Source: a virus
IMG/VR virus record: IMGVR_UViG_3300023174_000708
Location: 1-21,650 of that record
Reading direction: 5' to 3' (one strand)
DNA: 21,650 bases
Position numbers and translations under genes: made by a program. This document shows, one piece after another, positions 1,287 through 21,650 of the stretch (its first letter is position 1; the number at the start of each line of letters is the position of its first letter). The notes under the pieces were generated by a model, which saw nothing but the letters and a program-made list of their open reading frames with translations, had not been told where the DNA came from and ran no database searches.

Positions 1287-4200
1287 TTGAGACCTTTCAG
1301 ATAAGCCAGCGGCGATTTAGCCTTCGGCGGTATTTTGTCATTTGGTGCGGAGCGTTTGTGAGCGCGAATCGCCTCACGCATCTTGTCTAGCTTGTCTGCC
1401 CCCGCTTTGTTCGAGCCGTCACCGAGTGCTGCAACGATATCAGCATCGAATACGTACTCACCGTCGGCTAGACGAGCGTCGATCAAATCATCCTGCCCAC
1501 CGCCAGCGCCTTGCACGTAGTGTGAGCCCTTATGCGGTACATTGCCTCCACGAGCTGCCATCAGCGGGGACGCCATAGCTAGACCGCCTCCGGCAAACGC
1601 CGCAGGTTTCTCACCGCGTAGCGCATCAAACTGATCGTCTAAGTTAAAATCTTCGCCATAGTTGTAGGCGTTGGGCGCAGCATAAGAGGCCATAATGGCC
1701 GCAGCGATTCTAGGGTCAACACCTTCCATGGCCATTGAGTCTCTCATTTCTCGTTGTTGTGCTACTTTTAAAGCAGCAAGAGGGTCAACAAACTTGTCTT
1801 GGGTTTGATAAGTCTTAAGCAGGTTCTCTTTGACCTCAGGCACTTTGCCTTCTACAGACTTCTCTGAGCCTATTATAGCTGGCGATCCGGTGCTAGTGGT
1901 TGTAGTTGTAGGAATAGTTACTTTTACACTAGTCCCAGTGCCGGTTCCGGTTCCGGTTCCTGTGCCAGTACCAGTGCCTGTACCAGTCCCAGTTCCAGTA
2001 CCCGTTCCCGTACCTGTCCCAGTTGAGGTCCCTGTACCTGTGCTAGTCCCAGTTCCAGTTGAGGTTCCAGTTCCCGTTCCAGTTCCCGTGCCAGTCCCTG
2101 TCCCTGTACTAGTTCCTGTACTAGTTCCAGTCCCAGTTCCAGTCCCAGTACCAGTCCCAGTTCCAGTCCCAGTACCAGTTCCAGTTCCAGTCCCAGTACC
2201 AGTACCAGTCCCAGTACCAGTTCCGGTTGAAGTTCCTGTTCCGGTTGAAGTTCCTGTAGATGTACCCGTACTCGTCCCAGTAGTGCTTGATGTCCCAGTA
2301 GTACCTGTAGTTGTACTCGCCCCTGTACCTGTTGAAGTACTAGTGCTAGTGCTAGTGCTAGTGCTTGTTCCTGTCAATGATCTAGTATCACTCGTACCAG
2401 TGCTAATGCTAGTAGATGTAGACACAGAGGTATTAGTAGAAGTCGATACGCTTGTAGAAGTCGATACGTTTGTAGAAGTGCTTGTAGAGGTGCTTGTAGA
2501 TGTAGAGGTATTAGTTTGAGTTCCAGATCCTGTACTAGTGGAAACATTCGTACTAGTTGAAACGCTAGATCCAGTTGTACCTGTAGACACGCTAGAACCC
2601 GTAGTACCTGTAGTGGTCAACCTAGATTGAGCCGCCGCGATGTCTGCGTCACTTACGCCGAACTTTGCTTTTGCAGCGGCGATAGCATTAGAATCAGGGT
2701 TGGACGCAAGGAAAGCGTTGATGTCGTTATAGTACCTATCTAATCCTTGATTAGCCTTCGCGTATTCGTACCCTGCGCTATTTCCACCCGCCGCGCCTGT
2801 AGCGCCAGAAGCGGCTGAAGACGAACCTGAAGCCGCTACGTTTGAACCTGAGGTTGAGCCTGAGGTTGAACCTGCAGAAGCAGCCGCATTAGCAGCAGCT
2901 AACGCATCAGCATCAGAGGCTCCTGCATTTTTAGCAGCTATAAATGTGTTCTGCCCGATCTGTGACAAATCAGCGCTGCTTGCTGCGGTAGAACTAGTAG
3001 TTGATGCCGAGGTAGATACCGAGGTTGTGACAGGCGTCTCTCGTTTAGCCGTAATCGTTAGAGTCGGTATCTCTTCTTGTAGTGATGTAGGGTCAGCGGC
3101 TTTCGCTTTTAGGATAGCAAAGTCTTCATCAGACATATTGATACCCATGTTCTTCAAGGTCTGTTGAGTTACATTTTCATCGTTAAGTAATGATACCGTA
3201 GCCCTCAAAGTTGCGTCATCTGGCTTTTGAGAAGTCATACCCGCAGTGGGGTTAAACTGCGACATGAGGTAGGCTATACCGGCGTGTGCAGCAGCTACAG
3301 CAGTTGCGATCTCAGGAGAAAAAGCTGCTCCCGCTAAAATCAACGGCGCGACCGTTTGCGTAACGCCGCCTTCTCCGTTTGACGAGGCGAAAGTGCTAGC
3401 TTGTAGCGGTGACATACCTTGCGATATGGCGTAGTCATACAACTGCTGAGTTCTATCTACTAGGCTTGTTCCTGCGTCAGATACTTTTGTACCTCCAGAA
3501 GTAGCTGTAGAACTGTTAGCTAGACTGATCAAGTTTCCTAAAGCCGCAGGATTTGCGCTTGCTAGATTAGTGGCCAAGTTAGAGATAGTCAAAGCATCTT
3601 TAGCGGTAATTCCATTGATGTTTGCTGAACCTAATCCTAGATTACTCTGAATATCTGCGTTTCCAGCGAGCGATGTCAACGCTCCTAAAGTATCACCTTT
3701 ATTTACGGCTTGTCCAACTTTTAATGCAGTGTTGACGTTCTCCAAACCAGGAACAAGCCCAGTCCCGCCGATGATGGCTCCAGTCAAGTTACCAGTTCGA
3801 ACTGCGTCTGCGACATTTAACCCAGCTAAAACTTGACCAGCTCCGGGGATAAACGATAAACCCATCTTTACTAAATCAAGGTCGCTAAAATCGCCTACAC
3901 CGCGACGATCCAAAACTTGTCCTGTTTTGTCGTCAATCAACTCCATAGAGCGTTGGTCAGCGGAGCGAGCCCAGTGAGAAACTTCTACGGGACGCTGTGC
4001 AATCTGAGTATCAATATCATCACCTTCGATGACATTACTAACTCCACCGCTTGTAGGTTTAATAGCAGATTTTGTCACACCTCCAGTTGAGGTTATATTG
4101 TCAGTAGGAGCCGTAAGTAAATTACTAGTTTGAGCATTTGAAGCTTGAGCTAAACCCCCGATAGGGGCTGGCGCTTCAGGTTTCGCGTAGAGGTCGTAGG

Positions 4201-4363
4201 CTTGAGTTATTGTAGGAGCAGCAACTCCCAGAGCGCTCAAATAATCTACAGCTTGCTTCTGCGAAGCTGCAGTATCACCACCAGCCAAACCTGTAAACTC
4301 TTTATACGCGGCGGCGATTTCGTCGGGGGTGCTTGATGCTGATAGTTTTTCAAATAAGGGCAT
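1283..4363 (-). CDS. Large Ala/Ser/Thr-rich virion protein with (Thr-Gly)n tract and tape-measure-like C-terminal motif
   Basis: This 1026-residue protein is the longest in the window. Residues 1-430 form an apparently folded N-terminal part with several Ala/Gly/Leu hydrophobic stretches, for example LSFIPGAGQVLAGLNVADAV and APLILAGAAFSPEIATAVAA. About residues 440-610 are Ala/Ser/Gly-rich. From about 610 to 810 the chain is almost pure Thr/Ser/Gly, ending in a long Thr-Gly dipeptide run. The last 104 residues (923-1026) carry FAGGGLAMA, then GGQDDLIDARLADGEYVFDA. This resembles the motif near the ends of many phage tape measure and related tail proteins (FAGGG, Gly-x-Asp, Ala-x-Leu-x-x-Gly-Glu-x-Val). 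The very end is Lys-rich. The gene begins two bases after the 89-residue gene. A tape-measure or ejection-protein role is inferred from size, position and this motif. Confidence 0.8.
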   Translation of the reverse strand: MPLFEKLSASSTPDEIAAAYKEFTGLAGGDTAASQKQAVDYLSALGVAAPTITQAYDLYAKPEAPAPIGGLAQASNAQTSNLLTAPTDNITSTGGVTKSAIKPTSGGVSNVIEGDDIDTQIAQRPVEVSHWARSADQRSMELIDDKTGQVLDRRGVGDFSDLDLVKMGLSFIPGAGQVLAGLNVADAVRTGNLTGAIIGGTGLVPGLENVNTALKVGQAVNKGDTLGALTSLAGNADIQSNLGLGSANINGITAKDALTISNLATNLASANPAALGNLISLANSSTATSGGTKVSDAGTSLVDRTQQLYDYAISQGMSPLQASTFASSNGEGGVTQTVAPLILAGAAFSPEIATAVAAAHAGIAYLMSQFNPTAGMTSQKPDDATLRATVSLLNDENVTQQTLKNMGINMSDEDFAILKAKAADPTSLQEEIPTLTITAKRETPVTTSVSTSASTTSSTAASSADLSQIGQNTFIAAKNAGASDADALAAANAAASAGSTSGSTSGSNVAASGSSSAASGATGAAGGNSAGYEYAKANQGLDRYYNDINAFLASNPDSNAIAAAKAKFGVSDADIAAAQSRLTTTGTTGSSVSTGTTGSSVSTSTNVSTSTGSGTQTNTSTSTSTSTSTSTNVSTSTSVSTSTNTSVSTSTSISTGTSDTRSLTGTSTSTSTSTSTSTGTGASTTTGTTGTSSTTGTSTGTSTGTSTGTGTSTGTGTGTGTGTGTGTGTGTGTGTGTGTGTGTGTGTSTGTSTGTGTGTGTGTGTGTSTGTGTSTGTGTSTGTGTGTGTGTGTGTGTGTGTGTGTGTGTGTSVKVTIPTTTTTSTGSPAIIGSEKSVEGKVPEVKENLLKTYQTQDKFVDPLAALKVAQQREMRDSMAMEGVDPRIAAAIMASYAAPNAYNYGEDFNLDDQFDALRGEKPAAFAGGGLAMASPLMAARGGNVPHKGSHYVQGAGGGQDDLIDARLADGEYVFDADIVAALGDGSNKAGADKLDKMREAIRAHKRSAPNDKIPPKAKSPLAYLKGLK
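1931..2262 (-). repeat. Hexanucleotide ACTGGN tandem tract coding for (Thr-Gly)n
   Basis: On the coding strand this is a nearly perfect run of the six-base unit ACTGGN, with only the sixth base drifting. It encodes alternating Thr and Gly with occasional Ser. Longer units (18 bases) recur around 2140-2215, as expected from slipped-strand duplication. The tract flows into a Thr/Ser repeat (about 2330-2530) built on ACTAGC or ACTTCT-like units. A tract of this kind changes length easily in replication, and the reading frame tolerates it because the unit is a multiple of three. Confidence 0.9.
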
Positions 4364-4365
4364 AG

Positions 4366-4635
4366 TCAGCTCACTGCAGGGTTAACGGCATTCACCAAGG
4401 CTTCTGCCCACTCATGCCAATCATCAAAGATGAAAGGTCCGGGGATGCCTTCATTAGTAAAGACATCAATCGCTTTTAGCCCTGATGCCCACTCTTGCCA
4501 GTTTGTACTGTCTGTAGGTATTTCCAAATTCTGCGTACCGTACAGTTCGCACATCAAAGACGCCCAAGATACAAAGTCGTGATAGCGAGGGTCGTATATC
4601 AGCGCGACGTTGGGTGAGGGGGATGCTGTAGCCAT
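4366..4635 (-). CDS. Small acidic hypothetical phage protein (89 aa)
   Basis: The ATG overlaps the stop of the stabilisation-protein gene by one base (TAATG), so translation is probably coupled. The protein is acidic and unusually rich in Trp (five: in FVSWAS, TNWQEWAS and DDWHEWAEA). It has two related Trp-x-x-Trp segments, NWQEWASGLKA and DWHEWAEALVN, which look like an internal repeat of a short amphipathic helix. There is no membrane segment or cysteine pair. I recall similar small genes beside the stabilisation protein in aquatic phages, without known function. It may be a small tail or ejection-complex partner; this is inferred only from its neighbours. Confidence 0.8.
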   Translation of the reverse strand: MATASPSPNVALIYDPRYHDFVSWASLMCELYGTQNLEIPTDSTNWQEWASGLKAIDVFTNEGIPGPFIFDDWHEWAEALVNAVNPAVS

Positions 4636-6878
4636 TAGTACGGTCTCACGTCGCCCACGTCGGCGTCTAAAACGATTCTACCAAGTTGAAAGTCTCCACC
4701 AGTTACATTGGATACAAACTTCAACCGCAACTCACGACGTTGCTCACGCATATCGATCTTACCTGAGTTAGGACTGAATGTATAAGGACCTGTGGTGTAA
4801 TCGGCTGATTGAGCAAACGGACGTCCAGTAACGTACAAGTCCATATCACCCGTCTGTATAAAGTCAGGCTCCACCCGCTCTAGCCGCAACCATAAGTTCT
4901 CTCCTACGGCAGACGGTTGAGAAGGACCTCCAGATACAAGTCCAAGATCGTTTGTTTCAAAGAACGACTCAATAGCCGTATACGTACCGCCCGTGACTTT
5001 ATCTGTACCGATTTCATTTTGATACAACGATACAAAACTCATCAAAGTATTGACCGTCAAAACAAATCCTGCGCCACCCGCGATCGTTGCAGATAAAGTA
5101 TTACCTACGGCGTAGCCAGTTCCATGCCCGTTGATAACTACTGCAGTAACTACGTTTCCTGCTACAGTAATATTTGCGGTTGCTCCTGTGCCTGTGCCCC
5201 CTGTCAACGGCGTGTTATTGTAAGTGCCGTTTGTGTAGGCTGAGCCCGCATTTGTGATCGTTGTCGCTAGAACGCCGCCCGTAGCATTGACATTCCAATC
5301 GGCGGTGACTGGGTAGTGAAACACTTGAGAAAAATAACCTGCAGAGCGTTGAGCGCCTAGAGCTTCACCTGCGTCATACCAAGTATTTTCACGAATGTTA
5401 TAGATGATAGCATCAGTGCACTCAGTCGCATTACCGCGAGGATAGAACCACCATATTTCACCGAAGCGAGGAACTTTAGACACCCAAACTTTCTCACGCT
5501 GAGCGTAGTTGAGATTATCAAAAAAGTAGTTCTGGTTCATGTTGTTCGGTATTTCTTTTACAACACCGTTGTACAACAGGAAGCGGTCAACTCCGCACCA
5601 ATAGTAAATACCGTCGTACTCAATCACGCACTGCGAGGATAGAATGGACGACTGAGAAGAGATCAAGTCATAGCGCCAGTACTGAGGTGGGGTACCTGTA
5701 CCGCCGATGTAGGATACTCGAATCAACGAGTCCAAAGACCAAAATAGCCCTGATGGAGCATTAGAGCCGCCGCGAACGGGCAAACCTTGTACGATCTTTC
5801 CTGTAGCTACGTTTACCTCATTAGCATCAGCCGATATCCAATCATTGACGTTACTAGCTGCGCAGTTTTTGATCAATCCATTATTACCGTACACAAACAC
5901 GTAAGGATGCAGAGAAACTACGCCGCCTGATACCGATATGTTATTGTCAAAAGTGATTGTAGAAGCGCCAGAAGTTGTAGCGGCGGCTGAGATCACGATG
6001 TTTTGTACTTGACCTAATGTAAAGACTAAGCCCGTAGTTGTTCCCGCTGTTGTGACAATCGCGCCGCCGCCCGAAGACGCTGACAAAGTAAATGTCGTTG
6101 CGTAGTTAGTAGCGATGATATAGTACGTTACACCTGAGGTTATCCCCGTAGCAGTTCCTGTGGAAGTTCCTGTCACTCGAACGGTCTGTCCTATATAGAG
6201 TCCAGAGGTAGAAGTGCAAGAGCATTGTCCCGCGATTCCAGTTACCGCTACAGCATTCAAAACCGGAGAAGCTATACTAGCTGAAACAACGGTAGTATTA
6301 GAAGGAATACCTGTTCCAGATATAGATTGACCCGCGCCGATTTGAACATCCTGCGTTGATAAGTACATTGTCGTTGTACTATTCAAGTATACAGAATCTG
6401 TAAATATACCGATAGGGCTTAAACTTGTACCCGTCACCGAGCCGCCTAAAACTTTTGTATTGATGTTATTATCAATCAGCGTAAGGTTTTGACCAGGATG
6501 GGCTAGTAACAGATTGTTTCCAGAACCGGCAACGTCTGAAAACGTATCAAATTGCCAGAGGTTATCCGCGTTAGCCGTGAAGCCTGTCAAAGTCAAATCT
6601 GTAATACCCGAACCCACGCCGTTGTTATCAATAGGTAAGAGTTGCAGACCTCCAGAGTATCCGTTGAATACGTTGTTAAAGTTCTGCTGCGGGTTTAGGT
6701 ATACACCGCGAGAAGGTCCTGCTAGAGACGCGGTGATTTGTCTGTAGCCGCCGATCTTGCGAGGGCGTCCGCGTTGAAAACGAACCCAACGACCAGAGTT
6801 GTAAAACTGCTTATCAAAAATCGTTCCATCGCGTTGAATGCCTGGTTTAGTGTCAAGAGCAAAAACTTTTGCGGTCAT
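4635..6878 (-). CDS. P22 gp10-like packaged-DNA stabilisation (tail hub) protein with inserted modules
   Basis: This 747-residue protein begins by ATGA overlap with the fibre gene, behind a perfect GGAGGT ribosome site. The N-terminus (FDKQFYNSGRWVRF, then PRKIGGYRQI) and the repeated Tyr/Trp beta strands of residues about 320-520 (WRYDLIS, CVIEYDGIYYWCGVDRFLLY, GEIWWFYPRG, IIYNIRENTWYDAG) resemble the beta-propeller stabilisation proteins that plug the portal below the adaptor (P22 gp10 type). The end (RRELRLKFVSN, then FQLGRIVLDAD) fits the final beta strands of that family. Two stretches look inserted: residues about 150-315, and 535-610 between propeller strands. With these the protein is longer than I recall for P22 gp10 (below 500 residues). 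Role: tail hub that seals and stabilises packaged DNA. Assignment is by fold-like pattern from memory, not by search. Confidence 0.75.
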   Translation of the reverse strand: MTAKVFALDTKPGIQRDGTIFDKQFYNSGRWVRFQRGRPRKIGGYRQITASLAGPSRGVYLNPQQNFNNVFNGYSGGLQLLPIDNNGVGSGITDLTLTGFTANADNLWQFDTFSDVAGSGNNLLLAHPGQNLTLIDNNINTKVLGGSVTGTSLSPIGIFTDSVYLNSTTTMYLSTQDVQIGAGQSISGTGIPSNTTVVSASIASPVLNAVAVTGIAGQCSCTSTSGLYIGQTVRVTGTSTGTATGITSGVTYYIIATNYATTFTLSASSGGGAIVTTAGTTTGLVFTLGQVQNIVISAAATTSGASTITFDNNISVSGGVVSLHPYVFVYGNNGLIKNCAASNVNDWISADANEVNVATGKIVQGLPVRGGSNAPSGLFWSLDSLIRVSYIGGTGTPPQYWRYDLISSQSSILSSQCVIEYDGIYYWCGVDRFLLYNGVVKEIPNNMNQNYFFDNLNYAQREKVWVSKVPRFGEIWWFYPRGNATECTDAIIYNIRENTWYDAGEALGAQRSAGYFSQVFHYPVTADWNVNATGGVLATTITNAGSAYTNGTYNNTPLTGGTGTGATANITVAGNVVTAVVINGHGTGYAVGNTLSATIAGGAGFVLTVNTLMSFVSLYQNEIGTDKVTGGTYTAIESFFETNDLGLVSGGPSQPSAVGENLWLRLERVEPDFIQTGDMDLYVTGRPFAQSADYTTGPYTFSPNSGKIDMREQRRELRLKFVSNVTGGDFQLGRIVLDADVGDVRPY
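5049..5276 (-). other. Inserted Gly/Thr-rich adhesion-type module in stabilisation protein (residues ~535-610)
   Basis: This segment has the pattern ITNAGSAYTNGTYNNTPLTG, then GTGTGATANI, VVTAVVINGHGTGYAVG and a final Gly/Ala strand. I recognise the style (NAGSGYTNGTY, TGGTGTGA, GTGYxVGD) from small beta modules found in many unrelated aquatic phage tail and fibre proteins. The propeller-like Tyr/Trp sequence stops at FHYPVTADW and resumes at SFVSLYQNEIG, consistent with a loop insertion. The module may be surface exposed and bind cell-surface sugars; this is inference. Confidence 0.6.
5934..6430 (-). other. Inserted Ig-like/adhesion-type module in stabilisation protein (residues ~150-315)
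   Basis: Residues about 150-315 are Ser/Thr/Gly-rich, with the strings GQSISGTGIPSNTTVVSAS and ITSGVTYYIIATNYATTFTL. Both are short patterns I recall from repeated beta modules in phage tail fibres. They differ in composition from the Trp/Tyr-rich flanks (LWQFDTFSDVAG before and LHPYVFVYGNNGL after), which look like continuous propeller. Boundaries are approximate. Confidence 0.55.
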
Positions 6879-8106
6879 GTAAATGTACCTCCAGCAATGC
6901 CTGTGGTAAACGTACCTGAGCCAGTTACCGTTACTCCAGTTGCCGTTACGCCGACGCGCTTGGTGCCAAGAACAGCAATAGCGAGCTGCCCCGCACTAGG
7001 GCGATACAAACCAGTACCAGTTTCAGCGGCGAAGTTAAGCGAGGGCGTACCTACCGTACCGTCTACCAAGCTCACGGCGGTTGCTCCGGCTTGCGTCGTG
7101 TTAGCGTTCAAAAAGTTCGTACCGTCACAAATCAACGTAGCTTGTTGCCCAGGAGGAATAGTAGCTGTGTAGCCTAATCCTGTAGTAGCCGTTAAAGTGT
7201 AGCCATTGTCTGTAGTCTGATTTGAAATGACATATAAGTTAACGATCGGTGGGAAGGTGAGGGTGACGTTTCCTGTCAGATTACCGACATACTCTTGAAT
7301 AGTGTTTGACGCCTCGCTCGCGGTGAGCAAATAATTTCCAGAAACTACGTTCTTTACAAGCGAGGTAAATACAAACGAAGAGTTAACTCCGTAGCCGACA
7401 GTGACGTACGCAGTGCCGGTGCAGACAACGAATGCTGACTCAGAGGGGTTAAAAGTTTTTGTACTATTCCCGTCAATCAACTCAGCGCCCGTACAAGTCA
7501 ATGTAAAAGACCCTGTGCCGTTGTTCTTAAATAGTGTAAACCAGTTATTCCCGAGGGTTGCCGCCGCAGGCAGTGTAGCCGCTCCGGAACCACCGCTCCA
7601 TACTCTAGTTTGCGCTCTGTCAGTATCTGCAAAAGTTGAACCGCTCGTGATAGCTGCCGAGGGGTGACTTTGATTTAGAGTAGCCCCGCTAGCAACTAAC
7701 CCGTAGCCGGCAAGTGTGGCAGCGTTTCCACCGGAGGAACCTGCACCAAAAGCGATCACGCCCCATGTACCCGTAGTAGTAGGGTTTGTAGTTAGGTACA
7801 CATACTGCGCTGTTCCTGCCGCAACGCTAACGATTGTGCCGCCTGTGTAGTCTTTTACCGTAAACGCTACCGCCCCTAGATTACGTATCAACGCATCAGT
7901 ACCTACTGACGTTTGATTAGCCGGAGGCATGGACAATGAGTAACCCGCGCCCGTAGGAGTTACGTCCATAATACGCGCTGCGTAGTTGCTAGTCGCGTTG
8001 CCGTTGATTGGCCACGATAGCGTTAAGTTAGAGCTTAAATTAAACGCTCTAAAACTTACATCCGTCGGTTTATTACATCGCCGGTAAAGGGTGATACATA
8101 GCTCAT
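6875..8106 (-). pseudogene. Fibre/beta-structure virion protein gene with apparent 1-base frameshift
   Basis: The intended start is probably the ATG at 8106, which makes an ATGA overlap with the preceding adaptor gene. It reads MSYVSPFTGDVINRRM and then stops at 8056. The neighbouring frame carries on without an interruption as KPTDVSFRAFNLSS, WPINGNATSNYAARI and MDVTPTG, but has no start codon before the ATG at 7969. One extra base near 8069-8071 (a TTT run on the plus strand) would join the halves into 410 residues. I recall aquatic phage proteins beginning MSYVSPFTGDVI, followed by PTDVSFR. As it stands, only the 364-residue part from 7969 could be made, and I see no good ribosome site there. 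The C-terminal half is fibre-like (FAAETGTGLYRPSAGQLAI) and ends GIAGGTFT. Possible causes are a real mutation, recoding or an assembly/sequencing error. Confidence 0.75.
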
Positions 8107-8738
8107 GAGTCCACCGCTATGGCTTGACGATCGGCGATGCGGAGCTTGTCTTCAGCAACCAGCGTATCCATGATCTGCTGATACTGCGCTTGCCACATCG
8201 GGGTTCGTGTGTCGTTCTTGAGGAAGGGCATCGCTTGTAACAGCGAGCCGTAAAGTAATGCTTGAGGAGCGTAGGTAGTAAACCAGTTTGTCTGATTAGA
8301 CGAGTCTAGCGGTTGAATACGCTCATAATACAAAACTTCAAAGTTGTAAGCCGAGTTAGGCGTAGGCGCGATCAACCAGTTGTTGTAGTCATAATCACAA
8401 TAAAAAGCAGGCACGCCTGTAGCCGTTGGGTCTGGCCAGTACTCACGAAGGTACTCATACTTGCGAAGCAATACGGGTTGACGCTGGCCAGCTACTGTAA
8501 CATTGAACGATACGGTCTTATGCCACCGAGCAGGTTTCAAAATAGTAGCTTGTCCTGCAGTCAACGTACTAGTGTTAACAGTCAAGTTACCAAGAAATTT
8601 GATTTGACTAGCGATAATCTGCTCAGCCAACATGATGAAAAGAGGAATCTTTTCCAGAGTGGCGGTATCGTTACGCTCCAGATACGACTGGATATTCTCA
8701 ACTAGAGAATCATACGTCATTACGGCTGCGACTGTCAT
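8103..8738 (-). CDS. Phage head-tail adaptor-like protein (211 aa)
   Basis: The 211-residue product starts with MTVAAVMTYDSLVENIQSYL. The N-terminus is helical (TLEKIPLFIMLAEQIIAS) and is followed by beta strands and a helical tail. The pattern WHKTVSFNV, LLRKYEYLREYWPDP, FYCDYDYNNWLIAPTP, FEVLYYERIQPLDSSNQTNW matches what I remember of the phage adaptor family (P22 gp4 / T7 gp11-like; SU10-type adaptor). These form a twelve-subunit ring under the portal. ERI/Tyr-Tyr strands followed by an Ala/Leu-rich helix (QALLYGSLLQAMPFL) are typical. It is the first gene after the promoter at 8766-8793. GAGG lies about 10 bases before the ATG. A second adaptor-like gene lies at 16973-18031, so the two may be successive neck rings. 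Confidence 0.75.
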   Translation of the reverse strand: MTVAAVMTYDSLVENIQSYLERNDTATLEKIPLFIMLAEQIIASQIKFLGNLTVNTSTLTAGQATILKPARWHKTVSFNVTVAGQRQPVLLRKYEYLREYWPDPTATGVPAFYCDYDYNNWLIAPTPNSAYNFEVLYYERIQPLDSSNQTNWFTTYAPQALLYGSLLQAMPFLKNDTRTPMWQAQYQQIMDTLVAEDKLRIADRQAIAVDS

Positions 8739-11496: not shown

Positions 11497-12126
11497 TTAA
11501 CTTGTTTTCAAACCATACAAATGGAATTGACCATAAATATTGTTTGAACTTGCATAAAATTGAAATCCTGTAAGCGGCAAATTATTAGCAGATAAGTTTT
11601 GCCCCCATCCTTTTACCCAACCTAGAGTTCCTGCATTTGCAGAACTAATATAAATTGGGGCCATCAAATTCCACTCAAATGCCTTATATGTTGTAGTTCC
11701 CGAAGAAGCGGGGTTATACAACATAAGAGTGCCTCTAATACTGTCGTTTCTTGAGCCTTGCATGTACAACGGCCCATTACCGTTCATTTGCGTTCTTGAA
11801 ACATTAACGCCGTTGTCATAAAATCCACTGCCTGTATTGTTTCTTTGGCCATAAGTCGAAAAATAGTAATTGAGATTTTGCAAAGAACCGTTGTAGTAAA
11901 TCTTGAACAATAAATCTTGGTCAGTCGCCGCGCCATACAAATAATCAATAACAACCATATATGTGTTGTATGTTGCATCAATACCACTTGTTAATGCAAT
12001 ACTTGCGGCATTAGATGCCGTTGTGGTTGAAATATAAACCCAAGGGCTAGAACTACCACCAGCCGCTGTAGTTTGAATTGTGTTGTCGGGAAACTGTACG
12101 CCCGTGGATACAAGAGAGACTGCCAT
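11497..12126 (-). CDS. Short tail fibre or tip protein (209 aa)
   Basis: The N-terminus (GVQFPDNTIQTTAAGG) has the FPDxTxQTTAA signature common to the collar end of phage tail fibres. The rest is a beta-rich Asn/Tyr/Gly domain (DYLYGAATDQDLLFKIYYNG, NNLPLTGFQFYAS) ending YGQFHLYGLKTS, a C-terminal pattern I recall from short fibre tips. It starts immediately after the S74 fibre and may be a separate tip or an alternative fibre. By eye the gene is richer in A+T than the flanking fibres, possibly a swapped-in module. It likely helps contact the host surface; receptor unknown. Confidence 0.78.
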   Translation of the reverse strand: MAVSLVSTGVQFPDNTIQTTAAGGSSSPWVYISTTTASNAASIALTSGIDATYNTYMVVIDYLYGAATDQDLLFKIYYNGSLQNLNYYFSTYGQRNNTGSGFYDNGVNVSRTQMNGNGPLYMQGSRNDSIRGTLMLYNPASSGTTTYKAFEWNLMAPIYISSANAGTLGWVKGWGQNLSANNLPLTGFQFYASSNNIYGQFHLYGLKTS

Positions 12127-14187
12127 TTAGATGGTTCCTTTCAATGCTTTAACTTCTGCACGCAACTCGTTGATGGCTTCGATTAACAGGGGAACCAACT
12201 TGTCGTACTGAACTGTTTTGTAGTTCTCGCCTGACTTGCTATTGCCGTCTGCATCCAAGTCAAACGGTGCGGCTTTGACGATCTGTGGCAACACTGCTTC
12301 AACTTCTTGAGCAATCACACCGACTTGTTCTTCATCGCTGTCGTAACCAAAGGACTTGGCTACTGAGTTGTTTGTGTAGTACACACCAGACAACTTACCC
12401 ACTTTATCCAAAGCATTCTCAATCTTGCCGCTGACAGTCTTGAGTCGTGCGTCAGAGTAGTACGCAGTGATGTTGCCTGTTGCGTAGATTGCACCAGCAC
12501 CAGGGTCTGATGCTGTGCCTACTGAGAAACCACCAGATGAGGAAAATCTGGCTCGTTCTGCGGAGTTAGTTCTAAAAATAGTCGTAGTTGCACCAAGTGA
12601 TTCAAGGTTCAATCCCACCGAATCTGCGGATACACGCCCATAGGATGTGCTAGTCGTACCAATATCTACAATGCCACCAGTAGTACCGCCAACGACAAGG
12701 GATTTATAGTTGCTGACAGGAGATGGAACAGAAGTAGTCCCCACCAGCAAGTTACCGCTAGAGTCTATTCTGGCTCGTTCTGTGTTTGCTGTTGCTAAAG
12801 TAATAATTCCAGAGCCACCAACAGCATTTATTCCAACAACACCATTTCCATTCAAAGCTAAATTACCACCCATCAAAATTTTAGTATTTGCGTTTGGCCC
12901 TTGAATTGTGCTTTCGTCTGTTGGCAAATAAATGGCAGGTTGAGTGGCATTGCTTTGAGTAATAACAAGGCGACCACCAGCAGTTGTTGTTGCGCCTAAT
13001 CCCAAATTCCCACTTGCATCCAGAGTCATCGCCTGAGTAAAGGAGGCAACAGTGCCTGCTGTGCCAGATGCGGCTAAACGCCAAGCATAACCACCAGTAG
13101 TTGCACCATTAAAATCAAATACACCCGCGTATCCATTACCTGTGTAAAGGTTGTTTGTCCCATTAAAATAAGAGTTTGAATACAACCAATTAGAGTCATC
13201 TTTAGCCATTAGACCAAAGTTTTTAACTTGCAATGCAGTATAAGTAGAACCCCAAGCACTCGGAGTAACTCCCAAGCCTAGATTGCCTACGATGTCGAGG
13301 CGTAATCTTTCTCCCCAAGATGTTCCGTTATATGTTTGAAATGTCAGGAAGTTTGCGCCATAAATAGTTCCTGCCGCTTCATCTGTGTCATATCCAAGGA
13401 ATACACCTTTAGCGTTCGCTGAGTCCATAAAACGCGACACAAGATAACCTGCGCCAGCGTTTGTTCCTGTTCCAACAACGTGTAATTTATCAGCAGGCGA
13501 ACTTGTACCAATACCTACATTGATTCCACTAGCCGTATAAAGGCTTGAGGATGTGAGGCGCAATCCTTCTGTATCATTTGTAGCAAATGTTATTGGTAAG
13601 TTAGCAATTGAATTTATTTCAAAAGATGTATCGTTTGATTCAAACCTTGCTTTTTGTGTAGTGTTGTCATTAGCAAAAAAGCGGATTGCCCCTGCATTTG
13701 CGGATGCCCTACCTCTAATTCGTATGCCTGTGCCGCCAGAGTTAGATTGAATATCAACTGGTGCGCTTGGACTAGTTGCGCCACCAGCACCCAAATTAGT
13801 CCCATCAAAAGTAAGCGCAGAGCCAGTAGCCAATGCACTAGAACTAGATGCGTAAACCACACCGCCTGATGTGAATGATGTTAGGTTTGTACCGCCGTTG
13901 GTTGTTGCCAATGTGCCTGCCAACGTGATCGTTCCAGACGTTGTTATTGGGCCACCTGACGTGGTCAAGCCTGTCGTGCCACCTGATACGGCAACGCTAG
14001 AGACAGTACCTGCCGCGCCGCCTGAAGATGCCAACAAAGTAACAACGCCAGAACTGTTCTTGGCATACAGTTTCATGTCGGCTGTATTGAGCGCAAGTTC
14101 TCCGTTGACAAGATTACCGGACGTAGGAACAGCGGAAGCCGTCGTGCTGTAATACAGCGATATGGGTGTAAAGTTAGTAGCCGCCAT
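12127..14187 (-). CDS. Tail fibre with C-terminal S74 self-cleaving chaperone domain
   Basis: This 686-residue protein opens with a fibre head (TPISLYYSTTASAVPTSGNL, GELALNTADMKLYAKN). Then come Gly/Ser/Thr beta repeats, several with the NLGLG or VGIGTSSPADKLHVVG trimeric-fibre pattern. Residues 576-686 are a peptidase S74 (intramolecular chaperone) domain: SDARLK with Ser578-Asp579, QVGVIAQEVEAVLPQIV, YDKLVPLLIEAINEL and an amphipathic end. In this family the domain trimerises the fibre and then cuts itself off at the Ser-Asp dyad. The encoded end is therefore probably removed from the mature fibre. The start has the run GGGGGAACC as ribosome site, inside the end of the 809-residue fibre gene. 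Cell-surface adhesion is the likely role. Confidence 0.9.
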   Translation of the reverse strand: MAATNFTPISLYYSTTASAVPTSGNLVNGELALNTADMKLYAKNSSGVVTLLASSGGAAGTVSSVAVSGGTTGLTTSGGPITTSGTITLAGTLATTNGGTNLTSFTSGGVVYASSSSALATGSALTFDGTNLGAGGATSPSAPVDIQSNSGGTGIRIRGRASANAGAIRFFANDNTTQKARFESNDTSFEINSIANLPITFATNDTEGLRLTSSSLYTASGINVGIGTSSPADKLHVVGTGTNAGAGYLVSRFMDSANAKGVFLGYDTDEAAGTIYGANFLTFQTYNGTSWGERLRLDIVGNLGLGVTPSAWGSTYTALQVKNFGLMAKDDSNWLYSNSYFNGTNNLYTGNGYAGVFDFNGATTGGYAWRLAASGTAGTVASFTQAMTLDASGNLGLGATTTAGGRLVITQSNATQPAIYLPTDESTIQGPNANTKILMGGNLALNGNGVVGINAVGGSGIITLATANTERARIDSSGNLLVGTTSVPSPVSNYKSLVVGGTTGGIVDIGTTSTSYGRVSADSVGLNLESLGATTTIFRTNSAERARFSSSGGFSVGTASDPGAGAIYATGNITAYYSDARLKTVSGKIENALDKVGKLSGVYYTNNSVAKSFGYDSDEEQVGVIAQEVEAVLPQIVKAAPFDLDADGNSKSGENYKTVQYDKLVPLLIEAINELRAEVKALKGTI
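13822..14010 (-). repeat. Fibre module (residues ~60-122) shared with the neighbouring 809-aa fibre
   Basis: The segment with SSVAVSGG, TSGGPITTSGTITLAGTLA and NGGTNLTSFTSG repeats the design seen near the end of the 809-residue fibre (TSVAMTVPSFLSVSGSPITT, SGTLAVTLSGTALPVANGGT and TGATTLSG, followed by an Ala/Ser stretch). The order of short motifs is the same, so the two neighbouring genes share a paralogous module. Boundaries are approximate. Confidence 0.6.
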
Positions 14188-16972: not shown

Positions 16973-18031
16973 TTATCGAGAGTAAACGGATATATTGGGA
17001 GCCCAGTAAATTGGTGACTTATCGCGTTCTTCTTGCTCAGCTTGATAGAGATACTTTTCAGCTTGTTGCTCAAGATACTGGACGCGCTGCAAATCAACTC
17101 CGGGCAACTCCATACTCATTTGATGAGCTAACATAGACTGCACTGCCAAGTACCACCGCTGCGGTATTTCCAACTCATCAGTCAGCGCCCCGACGTCTTG
17201 AATTTGACGTGAGTACCAGACAGTCATCTGAATAAAAGGATCACTTGGCGTTGGCCACAAGTAAATTGTAGGCTGAGGAATAGTGCGGTCAAACCAGAAC
17301 TGGTACGGCTGATTGGCTGTAAAGTTTTTGTTCGGCAAGTTCGTGTAGTCATCACGGTTCAAGCGAGCCATCTGAATTTCACGGCTGTTGTTACCAACGA
17401 AGAATTCACGAACTTGAAGCGTACCGCCTCCAGTCTCGCGCATACGGTAGTACTGCACTGACTGGCCAGGATCGATATCATACCACAGCCATTCATTATC
17501 TACCCATGTCACCACGCCGGTATCTTCTAACAGGCTCCAAGTTGAGCCGTTAGTAGAATATTCCAATAGGATATGGAAACTACCGGAAACTCCGGGTAAT
17601 ATTCCGATAGATCCCGCGTAAACTTGGTTATCAGTACCGAAGTTTACAGCGATGTTGCCATTAGGCGATGTCTGCACGTCTTTGGTCGTTACATCGTTGT
17701 CAAACGCATTGTTTGCAACACCTGACGAAGCTGAGTAACCGCCCGTAGGACGATTCATTGTACGATATAGCACGTTGAGCGCATCGACCGCGCCTAGAGG
17801 CAGCGTATAGATGTATTTGTCAGCTTGTAAACCGATTACGGCTTTGCTGATCGCCCAGTAATTGATACCGCGATTGACTAGGTTTGATAGCAAAAAGTAT
17901 AACGACTCTCGCGCTGACAATACTTGTTCAGACGTGAGCTCCTCAGCCAACTTGCCGCAGCGACGAGCGCCGTGGTCAATGAACTTTTGTACATTGATTA
18001 AAGTTGTACCTACTGTTCCGCTAGTACTCAT
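16973..18031 (-). CDS. T7 gp11-like tail tube/adaptor protein with discoidin-like insert
   Basis: This 352-residue protein has the frame of the T7 tail tubular protein A / adaptor family. It opens with helices (VQKFIDHGARRCGKLAEELT) and WAISKAVIGLQ. Then, after the insert, come MARLNRDDYTNLPNKNFTAN, QPYQFWFDRTIPQPTIYLWP, a Tyr/Gln strand with VWYSRQIQDV and the helical EIPQRWYLAVQSMLAHQMSM. The tail ends in a coiled-coil-like Gln/Glu-rich helix. Residues about 98-215 appear to be an inserted beta-sandwich (a separate feature). The family forms the ring linking portal and tail. The gene lies three bases after the 172-residue gene and leads the neck/fibre block. Confidence 0.82.
   Translation of the reverse strand: MSTSGTVGTTLINVQKFIDHGARRCGKLAEELTSEQVLSARESLYFLLSNLVNRGINYWAISKAVIGLQADKYIYTLPLGAVDALNVLYRTMNRPTGGYSASSGVANNAFDNDVTTKDVQTSPNGNIAVNFGTDNQVYAGSIGILPGVSGSFHILLEYSTNGSTWSLLEDTGVVTWVDNEWLWYDIDPGQSVQYYRMRETGGGTLQVREFFVGNNSREIQMARLNRDDYTNLPNKNFTANQPYQFWFDRTIPQPTIYLWPTPSDPFIQMTVWYSRQIQDVGALTDELEIPQRWYLAVQSMLAHQMSMELPGVDLQRVQYLEQQAEKYLYQAEQEERDKSPIYWAPNISVYSR
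17387..17740 (-). other. Possible F5/8 type C (discoidin-like) domain inserted in the adaptor
   Basis: Residues about 98-215 read like a discoidin-type sugar-binding fold. The opening is a short AFDNDVTTKDVQT turn, then the strand IAVNFGTDNQVYAGSIGIL, the strand HILLEYSTNGSTWSLLED with the (Glu/Asp)-Tyr-Ser-x-(Asp/Asn)-Gly-x-x-Trp motif, and WYDIDPGQSVQYYRMRETG. It is flanked by ordinary adaptor sequence (ALNVLYRTMNRP before and EIQMARLNRDDY after). A sugar-binding insert on the neck ring would be unusual. Confidence 0.6.
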
Positions 18032-19862: not shown

Positions 19863-20312
19863 TTATACTTTCTGAGCATACACAACGGTAAAGCGATAGA
19901 CGCCTTGCGTTGTGCTGATCGTGCCGTTGGGAGCGATCGTCAAGACGACGTTGGTGTTTGTACCAACATCAGCCATCGCCGAAAGCTGTGCAGCTGTGAA
20001 TGTAAGCGCAGCGCGACCGCCAGCGAAAACATTGGTAGCTGATACATATTGTGTACCTGCCGCCGCCGTTCCGACAGTTGCGTTGATTAAAGTAGCCGTA
20101 CCGCCGCCAACCACTTCGTCCACAGTTTGATCAATAAAAATATTGATAATCTGTGAAGATGCGGGGATGACTTCAGTAACACTTACAGCCGTACCTGCCG
20201 CTACAGTAGTCACGGTACTTGTCTGCATCATAACGACGAAACCGCCGTCAACAGTGTCAGTCAAGGAACCGGAACCTGCACGCAGGGTAGAACCAAAGTA
20301 GGTTTGTGCCAT
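19863..20312 (-). CDS. Small beta-rich virion protein, possible decoration or head fibre (149 aa)
   Basis: The sequence is Thr/Val/Ala/Gly-rich with repeated beta strands (VDGGFVVMMQTSTVTTVAAG, IINIFIDQTVDEVVGGGTAT, NVVLTIAPNGTISTTQGVYR). It ends VVYAQKV. The gene lies just downstream of the major capsid gene with a strong AAGGAG site eight bases before the ATG (20321-20326). This is the usual place for decoration or head-completion proteins. It lacks any known motif beyond the general beta pattern. Confidence 0.75.
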   Translation of the reverse strand: MAQTYFGSTLRAGSGSLTDTVDGGFVVMMQTSTVTTVAAGTAVSVTEVIPASSQIINIFIDQTVDEVVGGGTATLINATVGTAAAGTQYVSATNVFAGGRAALTFTAAQLSAMADVGTNTNVVLTIAPNGTISTTQGVYRFTVVYAQKV

Positions 20313-20326
20313 TGTCTTTTCTCCTT

Positions 20327-20351
20327 AAAACGCAGGGGGCAAGCCCCCCGC
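20327..20351 (-). terminator. Hairpin after the capsid gene, possible partial terminator
   Basis: In the leftward transcript GCGGGGGG, a CUUG loop and CCCCCUGC pair over eight positions, with one G-U wobble where the other strand would have a mismatch. A short U tract (GUUUU) follows and then the ribosome site of the next gene. Strand-specific pairing favours the leftward transcript. The U tract is short, so read-through is likely. Confidence 0.65.
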
Positions 20352-20357
20352 TTGGGT

Positions 20358-21272
20358 TTAGACGCCGGCAGTGCCGTACATTGCACGCCAGTCAGTGAAG
20401 CCAACGTCGTAACGCTCTGTCGCCTTGTAGCGCATAGAGTCAGTTTCGAAGTCGCCTTCCATGGTCTTCTCCAACTTGCGACGCATCAAGAGCTTCATGC
20501 CCTCAGGAGCGTCGGTCTGGACCCACCATGCTGTAGCGCTGGTCAAACGAGACATAACTGCGGCACCTTCGTCCAACAAGCCGATAGACTTGATAGGGTT
20601 GATGTCGTTGTTAGCGGTGCCGGCACGCAACACTGATTTCAACAGCACTTCAGCTTGGAAGACGTTGCCTGGAGCCACCACCAACTGGCGGGGAACCAAA
20701 CGAATCTTCTTGCCGTTGTTGTCAACAGCTTGACGGATTTGAATCAGCATCTGTTCGAGAGATGTCTGAGACAAGTTCGCTGCAGTAGCCAACAAGTTAG
20801 AGGCTGTGCCGTTCACGATGGGGTGAGAAGCGGAGTTCAAAGGAACGCCGTCGCCGCCATTGTAACCAGCCGTGAACGCGTAGTTCAACACGTTAGCAGA
20901 CAAAGTCTCTTTTGTCTCAACCAAAGATTGAGCCAAGTGACGAGCATAAGTCTGACCGATACGGATGTGATCGCCGTCCTCAACCAACACTTTGGTCAAC
21001 GCGAAGGCCAAGCCATACACATTGTACACATAGCGTTTCAGGAACAGCACGCCGCCCTGTTGGTAGCTAACGGGAGTACCGTCAGGCAACTGAGGAGCTG
21101 CACCAAATCCGTACAAGACGGGTTCTTCGTGGTAGTTACGTGGGATACCTTGCTCTTCGCGGAAAACGCGAGACCATTCATCGGCACGTTGATCATAGAC
21201 TCCGTCGAAGCATTCATTGAGGATAGGTTCAACGATGCTTCTAAAGTCCGTACTGCGCATTGGAGCTGCCAT
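20358..21272 (-). CDS. Major capsid protein (HK97 fold, Mu gpT-like)
   Basis: This 304-residue protein matches the general pattern of Mu gpT-type major head proteins. An N-terminal helix (RSTDFRSIVEPILNECFDGV) is followed by VLYGFGAAPQLPDGTPVSYQ and a helical YVYNVYGLAFALTKVLVE. Then come GYNGGDGVPLNSASHPIVNG, LEQMLIQIRQAVDNNGKKI, LVVAPGNVFQAEVLLKSVLR, NNDINPIKSIG, TSATAWWVQTD and a strand-rich end (FETDSMRYKATERYDVGFTD). The Asn-Gly/Ser-His-Pro and LVVAPG segments are family hallmarks. Length fits the family. It has the strongest ribosome site seen (AAGGAGGG, 21281-21288), as expected for the most abundant virion protein. There is no visible fused protease or scaffold. Confidence 0.9.
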   Translation of the reverse strand: MAAPMRSTDFRSIVEPILNECFDGVYDQRADEWSRVFREEQGIPRNYHEEPVLYGFGAAPQLPDGTPVSYQQGGVLFLKRYVYNVYGLAFALTKVLVEDGDHIRIGQTYARHLAQSLVETKETLSANVLNYAFTAGYNGGDGVPLNSASHPIVNGTASNLLATAANLSQTSLEQMLIQIRQAVDNNGKKIRLVPRQLVVAPGNVFQAEVLLKSVLRAGTANNDINPIKSIGLLDEGAAVMSRLTSATAWWVQTDAPEGMKLLMRRKLEKTMEGDFETDSMRYKATERYDVGFTDWRAMYGTAGV

Positions 21273-21280
21273 GATTCACT

Positions 21281-21288
21281 CCCTCCTT
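21281..21288 (-). promoter_or_regulatory. Strong ribosome site of the capsid gene
   Basis: AAGGAGGG on the leftward strand, eight bases before the capsid ATG, overlaps the TAA of the preceding gene (21287-21289). This couples termination of that gene to very strong initiation of the capsid gene. Confidence 0.85.
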
Positions 21289-21650
21289 AAACGGCGTTGG
21301 TTACTGCGGTATACTGGTGCTTGCTAATTGTAGCGCGCACGATAGTATATGCATCTCCCCAAGCATTGCCGGGGATGGGAGCGAGGTCAACAATACGCAT
21401 TTGAGCGTTGTTACCTGCGCCAGCGAGTGTTGTTGACAAAGTGCACTGAGACAAACCAGTGACATTAGAGCCAGCGGTTGTGTTGCTCAGGTTAGCTTCG
21501 TCGCCAACGGAGGTTGCTGCAAGCGAGCCGGCAGCTTGGATTTCATACACGATCAAAGGATCATTGTAGTAGTACGCAACGGCTGAACCAGTCTGATAAG
21601 CAGTGTTAGCAGGGAAATAGTTCGACACGCGACGACGACCTGTGGTGTCA
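21287..21650 (-). CDS. Structural protein, 5' part beyond right edge
   Basis: The frame is open from the right edge to the stop at 21287. The codons before the first possible start within the window (a GTG at 21628) read DTTGRRR and continue directly into VSNYFPANTAY. The GTG has no ribosome site, so the real start is probably outside and only the C-terminal part is seen. That part is beta-rich with small residues (YYYNDPLIVYEIQAAGSLAA, CTLSTTLAGAGNNAQMRIVD) and ends YTAVTNAV. It lies directly upstream of the capsid gene. It could be a head decoration or completion protein; no firm family. Confidence 0.72.
   Translation of the reverse strand, partial: DTTGRRRVSNYFPANTAYQTGSAVAYYYNDPLIVYEIQAAGSLAATSVGDEANLSNTTAGSNVTGLSQCTLSTTLAGAGNNAQMRIVDLAPIPGNAWGDAYTIVRATISKHQYTAVTNAV

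Follow-up and report, generated by a model that had tools for sequence, protein, structure and literature searches.

The tail of SU10 consists of an adaptor, a nozzle, and long and short fibres, and six of the long fibres are held by their N-termini in the adaptor, a dodecamer (PMC9509320). The DNA analyzed here, called the window, is the whole stretch of 21,650 nucleotides of the virus record IMGVR_UViG_3300023174_000708. It carries a gene matching the Pfam SU10 adaptor family and, directly behind it, a fibre gene whose N-terminal codons are out of frame with the remainder; a search found no solved structure related to this fibre by sequence. By likeness to SU10, the window fibre would be attached to the adaptor.

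Among uncultured aquatic phages, the fibres of the contigs IMGVR_UViG_3300021963_006001 and 3300037189_003180 were 93% and 92% identical, respectively, to the window's at the protein level. Both contigs share the window's gene order and its ATGA overlap with the adaptor gene, and their fibres have 410 aa, the length of the window's protein when its two frames are joined; they differ in having one base more at the site of the break, where their frame is unbroken. A more distant match was the 'tail protein' UOF78404.1 of Caudoviricetes sp. MW202545.1 (43.9% identity over 92% of the query), which is encoded by a single unbroken CDS of 1,221 bases. Its neighbours are arranged as in the window, with an adaptor-size hypothetical protein upstream and, downstream, a gene annotated as 'phage stabilization protein' that is syntenic with the window's 747-aa structural gene. 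In addition, the 'tail fiber protein' GB2A_gp068c of Caulobacter phage GB2A was 38.9% identical over the first 286 query residues. Like the window fibre, it comes after an adaptor-size virion structural protein, but it is longer (~790 aa), has another C-terminal part and is unbroken. The proteins of Caulobacter phages RW, RLK and KcrB likewise matched only the first 286 query residues.

Organization of the Fibre Locus

The minus strand is the coding strand at the fibre locus, and the features are listed in Table 1. The fibre start (ATG, 8106-8104) overlaps the stop codon of the adaptor gene (TGA, 8105-8103) as ATGA, and translation from it gives only 16 codons, MSYVSPFTGDVINRRM, before a TAA stop at 8058-8056. 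The protein continues in the -1 frame with respect to the start, which opens after a stop just upstream of 8116. Its codons from CCG at 8068 onward give PTDVSFRAFNLSSNLTLSWPINGNATSNYAARIMDV, starting with PTDVSFRAFNL, and the frame ends with a stop at 6877-6875; no ATG, GTG or TTG occurs in this frame before the ATG at 7969. The codons at the break are GTA ATA AAC CGA, and the one-base gap in the alignment to relatives falls at the TTT of the plus strand at 8069-8071, which is AAA on the coding strand.

The initial annotation, which had described an ATGA-coupled start at 8106, a stop after 16 codons and no start before 7969, was thus correct in its coordinates and frames. It had also rightly placed the break at the T run, since the alignment gap falls there, and the proteins of the five closest relatives have exactly the 410 residues that it had calculated for the joined frames. 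On the other hand, the extra base that it had envisaged within the T run does not appear in relatives as a longer homopolymer; they carry instead a glutamine codon at residue 13. We saw no ribosome-binding-like sequence upstream of ATG 7969, and nothing resembling a promoter or a terminator was found near the break.

Table 1. Positions in the window of the split fibre gene, its neighbours and the elements around the break.
Feature	Coordinates	Strand	Basis or remark
Upstream gene, SU10-type adaptor protein	8103..8738	-	Pfam PF24175 (E 4.7e-26), PHROG 2941; ATGA overlap with fibre start
Short ORF, MSYVSPFTGDVINRRM then stop	8056..8106	-	True fibre N-terminus in codons 1-12, identical to relatives
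Site of one-base difference	8069..8072	-	Gap relative to relatives between 8071 and 8070
Remainder of fibre frame, 397 codons and stop, intact	6875..8068	-	88-93% protein identity to closest relatives, dN/dS, weak PHROG tail-fibre matches
Imperfect inverted repeat (stem-loop)	8024..8057	-	Just after the break, inside the fibre CDS
Sole ordinary-start ORF for the downstream part	6875..7969	-	ATG is the invariant Met47 of relatives; residues 1-46 absent
Downstream gene, 747-aa virion structural protein (phage-stabilisation/nozzle-like position)	4635..6878	-	PHROG 3287 (E 8.8e-29); ATGA overlap with fibre stop

At an identity of 70% or more, all 159 relative ORFs of the adaptor gene were full length and could be aligned from residue 1. 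Elsewhere in the window, a second protein (16976-18031, minus strand) weakly matched the SU10 adaptor family, with 26.2 bits against a cut-off of 27, and another fibre (12130-14187, minus strand) had a C-terminal Peptidase_S74 intramolecular chaperone domain. A 1026-residue protein (ORF 4363-1283, minus strand) contained, at 1830-2519, a long low-complexity alternation of Gly/Ser-Thr (GTGTGT..., STST...), which differed from relatives by many small indels, mostly multiples of three.

Unbroken Fibre Genes in Related Contigs

With the 397-residue part as the query, an IMG/VR scan confirmed 298 stretches, and the best 80 were retained. In every one of these best 80 of 298, the N-terminus MSY(V/I)SPFTGDV(I/V)Q was in frame with PTDVS..., and the fibre ATG overlapped the upstream stop as ATGA, as it does in the window. 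Because the same 13-residue N-terminus was joined in frame in all 80, the break in the window goes beyond chance. The unbroken frames of these best 80 of 298 support the one-base frameshift that had been proposed from the window, and they bear out the statement, made at the same time, that aquatic phage proteins begin in this way without the break. The fibres of the relatives were 410-433 aa long, and a short ORF followed by a separate downstream start, looked for as a natural arrangement, was found in none of them.

A second scan used a degenerate pattern of the N-terminal motif and, together with the earlier loci, covered at least 126 distinct places, none of which had a stop within the first 100 codons. 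Specifically within the fibre gene of one relative (L140, ~3347-4620), a single in-frame stop was seen at codon 191, with the homologous frame running on through it; this may be another isolated inactivation or an error. Among relative ORFs with at least 70% identity that share the 3' end of the fibre, all 130 had an N-terminus that could not be aligned in frame to the window. The exact 25-base junction of the window was present in no other viral contig of the collection, which may omit records very near the window, and the 30 bases preceding the junction were present in seven other viral contigs.

Isolation of the Gap and Selection on the Downstream Frame

The window was aligned with its relatives over longer stretches. 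Against contig 3300021963_006001 (L085), 4,833 bases aligned at 86.4% identity with one gap of one base, and against L001, 3,397 bases aligned at 90.9% identity, again with one gap of one base; in both cases the gap was the same single base absent from the window between 8071 and 8070. An identical gap was found against L082, L083, L084, L086 and L005; the remaining one-base gaps against these five contigs across the adaptor-fibre region were compensating pairs. No other unpaired one-base gap was present in the closest alignments. Furthermore, no other gene was split between frames in the approximately three quarters of the window covered by relatives, and the neighbouring tail genes were intact; the quarter outside this coverage lies mainly at 20001-21650, at 11501-13000 and in the repeat region at ~2000-2500. 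Note that this tblastn-based scan for split genes sees only pieces that are long enough and misses the known break, and a second comparison was built for lost ends. A contig generally ridden with indels was rejected, given that the closest alignments had no other unpaired gap and that the part covered by relatives had no further gene split between frames.

Over the 397 codons of the downstream frame, dN/dS was 0.064, 0.050, 0.072 and 0.085 against L001, L085, L084 and L005, respectively, and the same measure between relatives was 0.039-0.086. The branch leading to the window had 13-17 nonsynonymous and 45-63 synonymous changes, as compared with 16-27 and 57-67 on sister branches, so that no excess of nonsynonymous change was seen on the window branch, and no stop occurred in the 397-codon frame. 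The downstream frame is therefore under strong purifying selection without relaxation on the window branch. A long-standing pseudogene was rejected by the dN/dS of 0.05-0.09, the lack of stops and the branch counts. Since there is no sign of a dead gene, the base was either lost very recently or never lost in the organism.

Nature of the Fibre Protein

The window fibre had weak matches to the PHROG tail fibre families 12796 and 28766 (E 2.7e-05 and 5.5e-05, respectively) and no match to a Pfam family, and phrog_12796 was matched by 44 of 44 relatives, with a best E of 1.7e-09. From these matches the protein is probably a tail fibre. An AlphaFold2 model of an intact relative had a mean pLDDT of 56.9 and was confident only over much of residues ~20-120. 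Foldseek matched ~100 columns of it to tailspike N-terminal regions at a marginal E of 0.03-0.4, from this poor whole-protein model, which gives a hint of a tailspike-like N-terminal domain. The top three PDB hits of Foldseek (6o38) were not trusted, with an rmsd of 17-18. The matches of the first 286 query residues to Caulobacter phages suggest that the N-terminal part may be a common anchoring part.

Translation starting at ATG 7969 would drop residues 1-46, including the invariant MSY, SPFTGDV, QPTDVS and W32-P33. It would also remove the first strand of the domain at residues ~20-120, the only one modelled with confidence. With these invariant residues and the first strand lost, ATG 7969 is unlikely to give a working fibre.

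Discussion

The break is a single-base loss, seen in this contig alone, in an ordinary and conserved gene for a probable tail fibre; its most likely origin is either a sequence error or a very recent mutation, rather than a biological device. The initial annotation had offered three readings, namely an inactive or phase-varying adhesin, a recoding site, and an error in the sequence; the error has the best support and an inactive adhesin is possible, whereas a recoding site and a phase-varying adhesin are contradicted by the unbroken relatives, the lack of a slippery heptamer and the run of three bases. Programmed -1 ribosomal frameshifting that joins both frames would need a downstream frame at -1, as is the case, and a stem-loop lies just downstream of the break, where one 80-nt stretch has a low folding energy (z of -3.5). 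However, GTA ATA AAC CGA is not a slippery X XXY YYZ heptamer of the zero frame, and split frames occurred in none of the 80 relatives (best 80 of 298) and in none of the at least 126 motif places. The stem-loop is common to the closest relatives, which are unbroken, and absent from more distant ones, and the fold of a wider stretch of 107 nt was unremarkable, with a z of 0.06. Its presence in unbroken relatives indicates that it is not tied to a frameshift, and programmed frameshifting is very improbable here. We give as little weight to the idea that the base is truly missing and that the fibre is made via a rare non-canonical frameshift or switch, unlike in all relatives.

The frameshift lies close to the start of an adhesin-like gene, the place where phase-variable repeats sit, and slippage in such a short repeat would turn the fibre on and off. 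The run in the window has only three bases, though, and is not longer in relatives, and neither a repeat tract nor a length variant nor an off-state was found among at least 126 distinct sequences; phase variation is hardly conceivable on these counts. Nor is it credible, except at the very margin, that a short leader ORF and, behind it, a fibre gene with its own start at 7969 are the natural arrangement. An ATG is present at 7969 and the Met there is invariant in relatives, but this Met is an internal residue of their unbroken frame, and the ATGA overlap between adaptor and fibre genes is conserved.

The missing base is probably a sequencing error or an assembly/consensus error of the contig. 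Such an error is favoured because the frame is selected throughout, no other sequence is broken at this place, and loss of a conserved tail gene would be strongly disfavoured in a phage that replicates. The adaptor-adjacent fibre gene is ordinary (410 aa in relatives), with translation from 8106 coupled to the stop codon of the adaptor gene. The one base missing at 8071/8070 in this contig separates the frame of the 12 N-terminal codons from that of the other 397. This loss is not conserved, and if it is a contig error, the phage would make a normal full-length fibre. Several points speak against an error. The site is no long homopolymer and hence no classic indel hotspot, and no other unpaired indel was present in the compared stretches, which makes a generally error-rich contig less likely. 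In addition, indels are not the usual error type of short-read data. A review associates indel errors chiefly with noisy long reads (PMC8021871); how far this bears on the contig depends on its sequencing method.

Somewhat doubtful, but to be taken seriously, is a real and very recent frameshift, in which the genome, or a minority variant in the assembly, has a fibre that is null or truncated at its N-terminus. In that case the particle would be defective, or would live with a fibre from ATG 7969 or without a fibre. The break does stand in the sequence as given, and isolated inactivating differences occur in related contigs, such as the stop of L140, although that stop is possibly an error too. 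Against a recent mutation, the junction is found in no other contig, the downstream frame is unrelaxed, and the product from 7969 would lack residues 1-46, with them several invariant positions and the modelled domain's first strand.

Whether the base was lost in the organism or only in the contig, comparison with a set of relatives distinguishes a one-off break from a site of recoding. As an error, the break would be a matter of annotation only, in which gene callers would give a fibre truncated by 46 residues and the conserved N-terminus would be lost. If it is a real allele, the window would represent a natural fibre-null or fibre-altered phage, which would be mildly interesting because the gene adjoins that of the tail adaptor and all relatives have conserved it.
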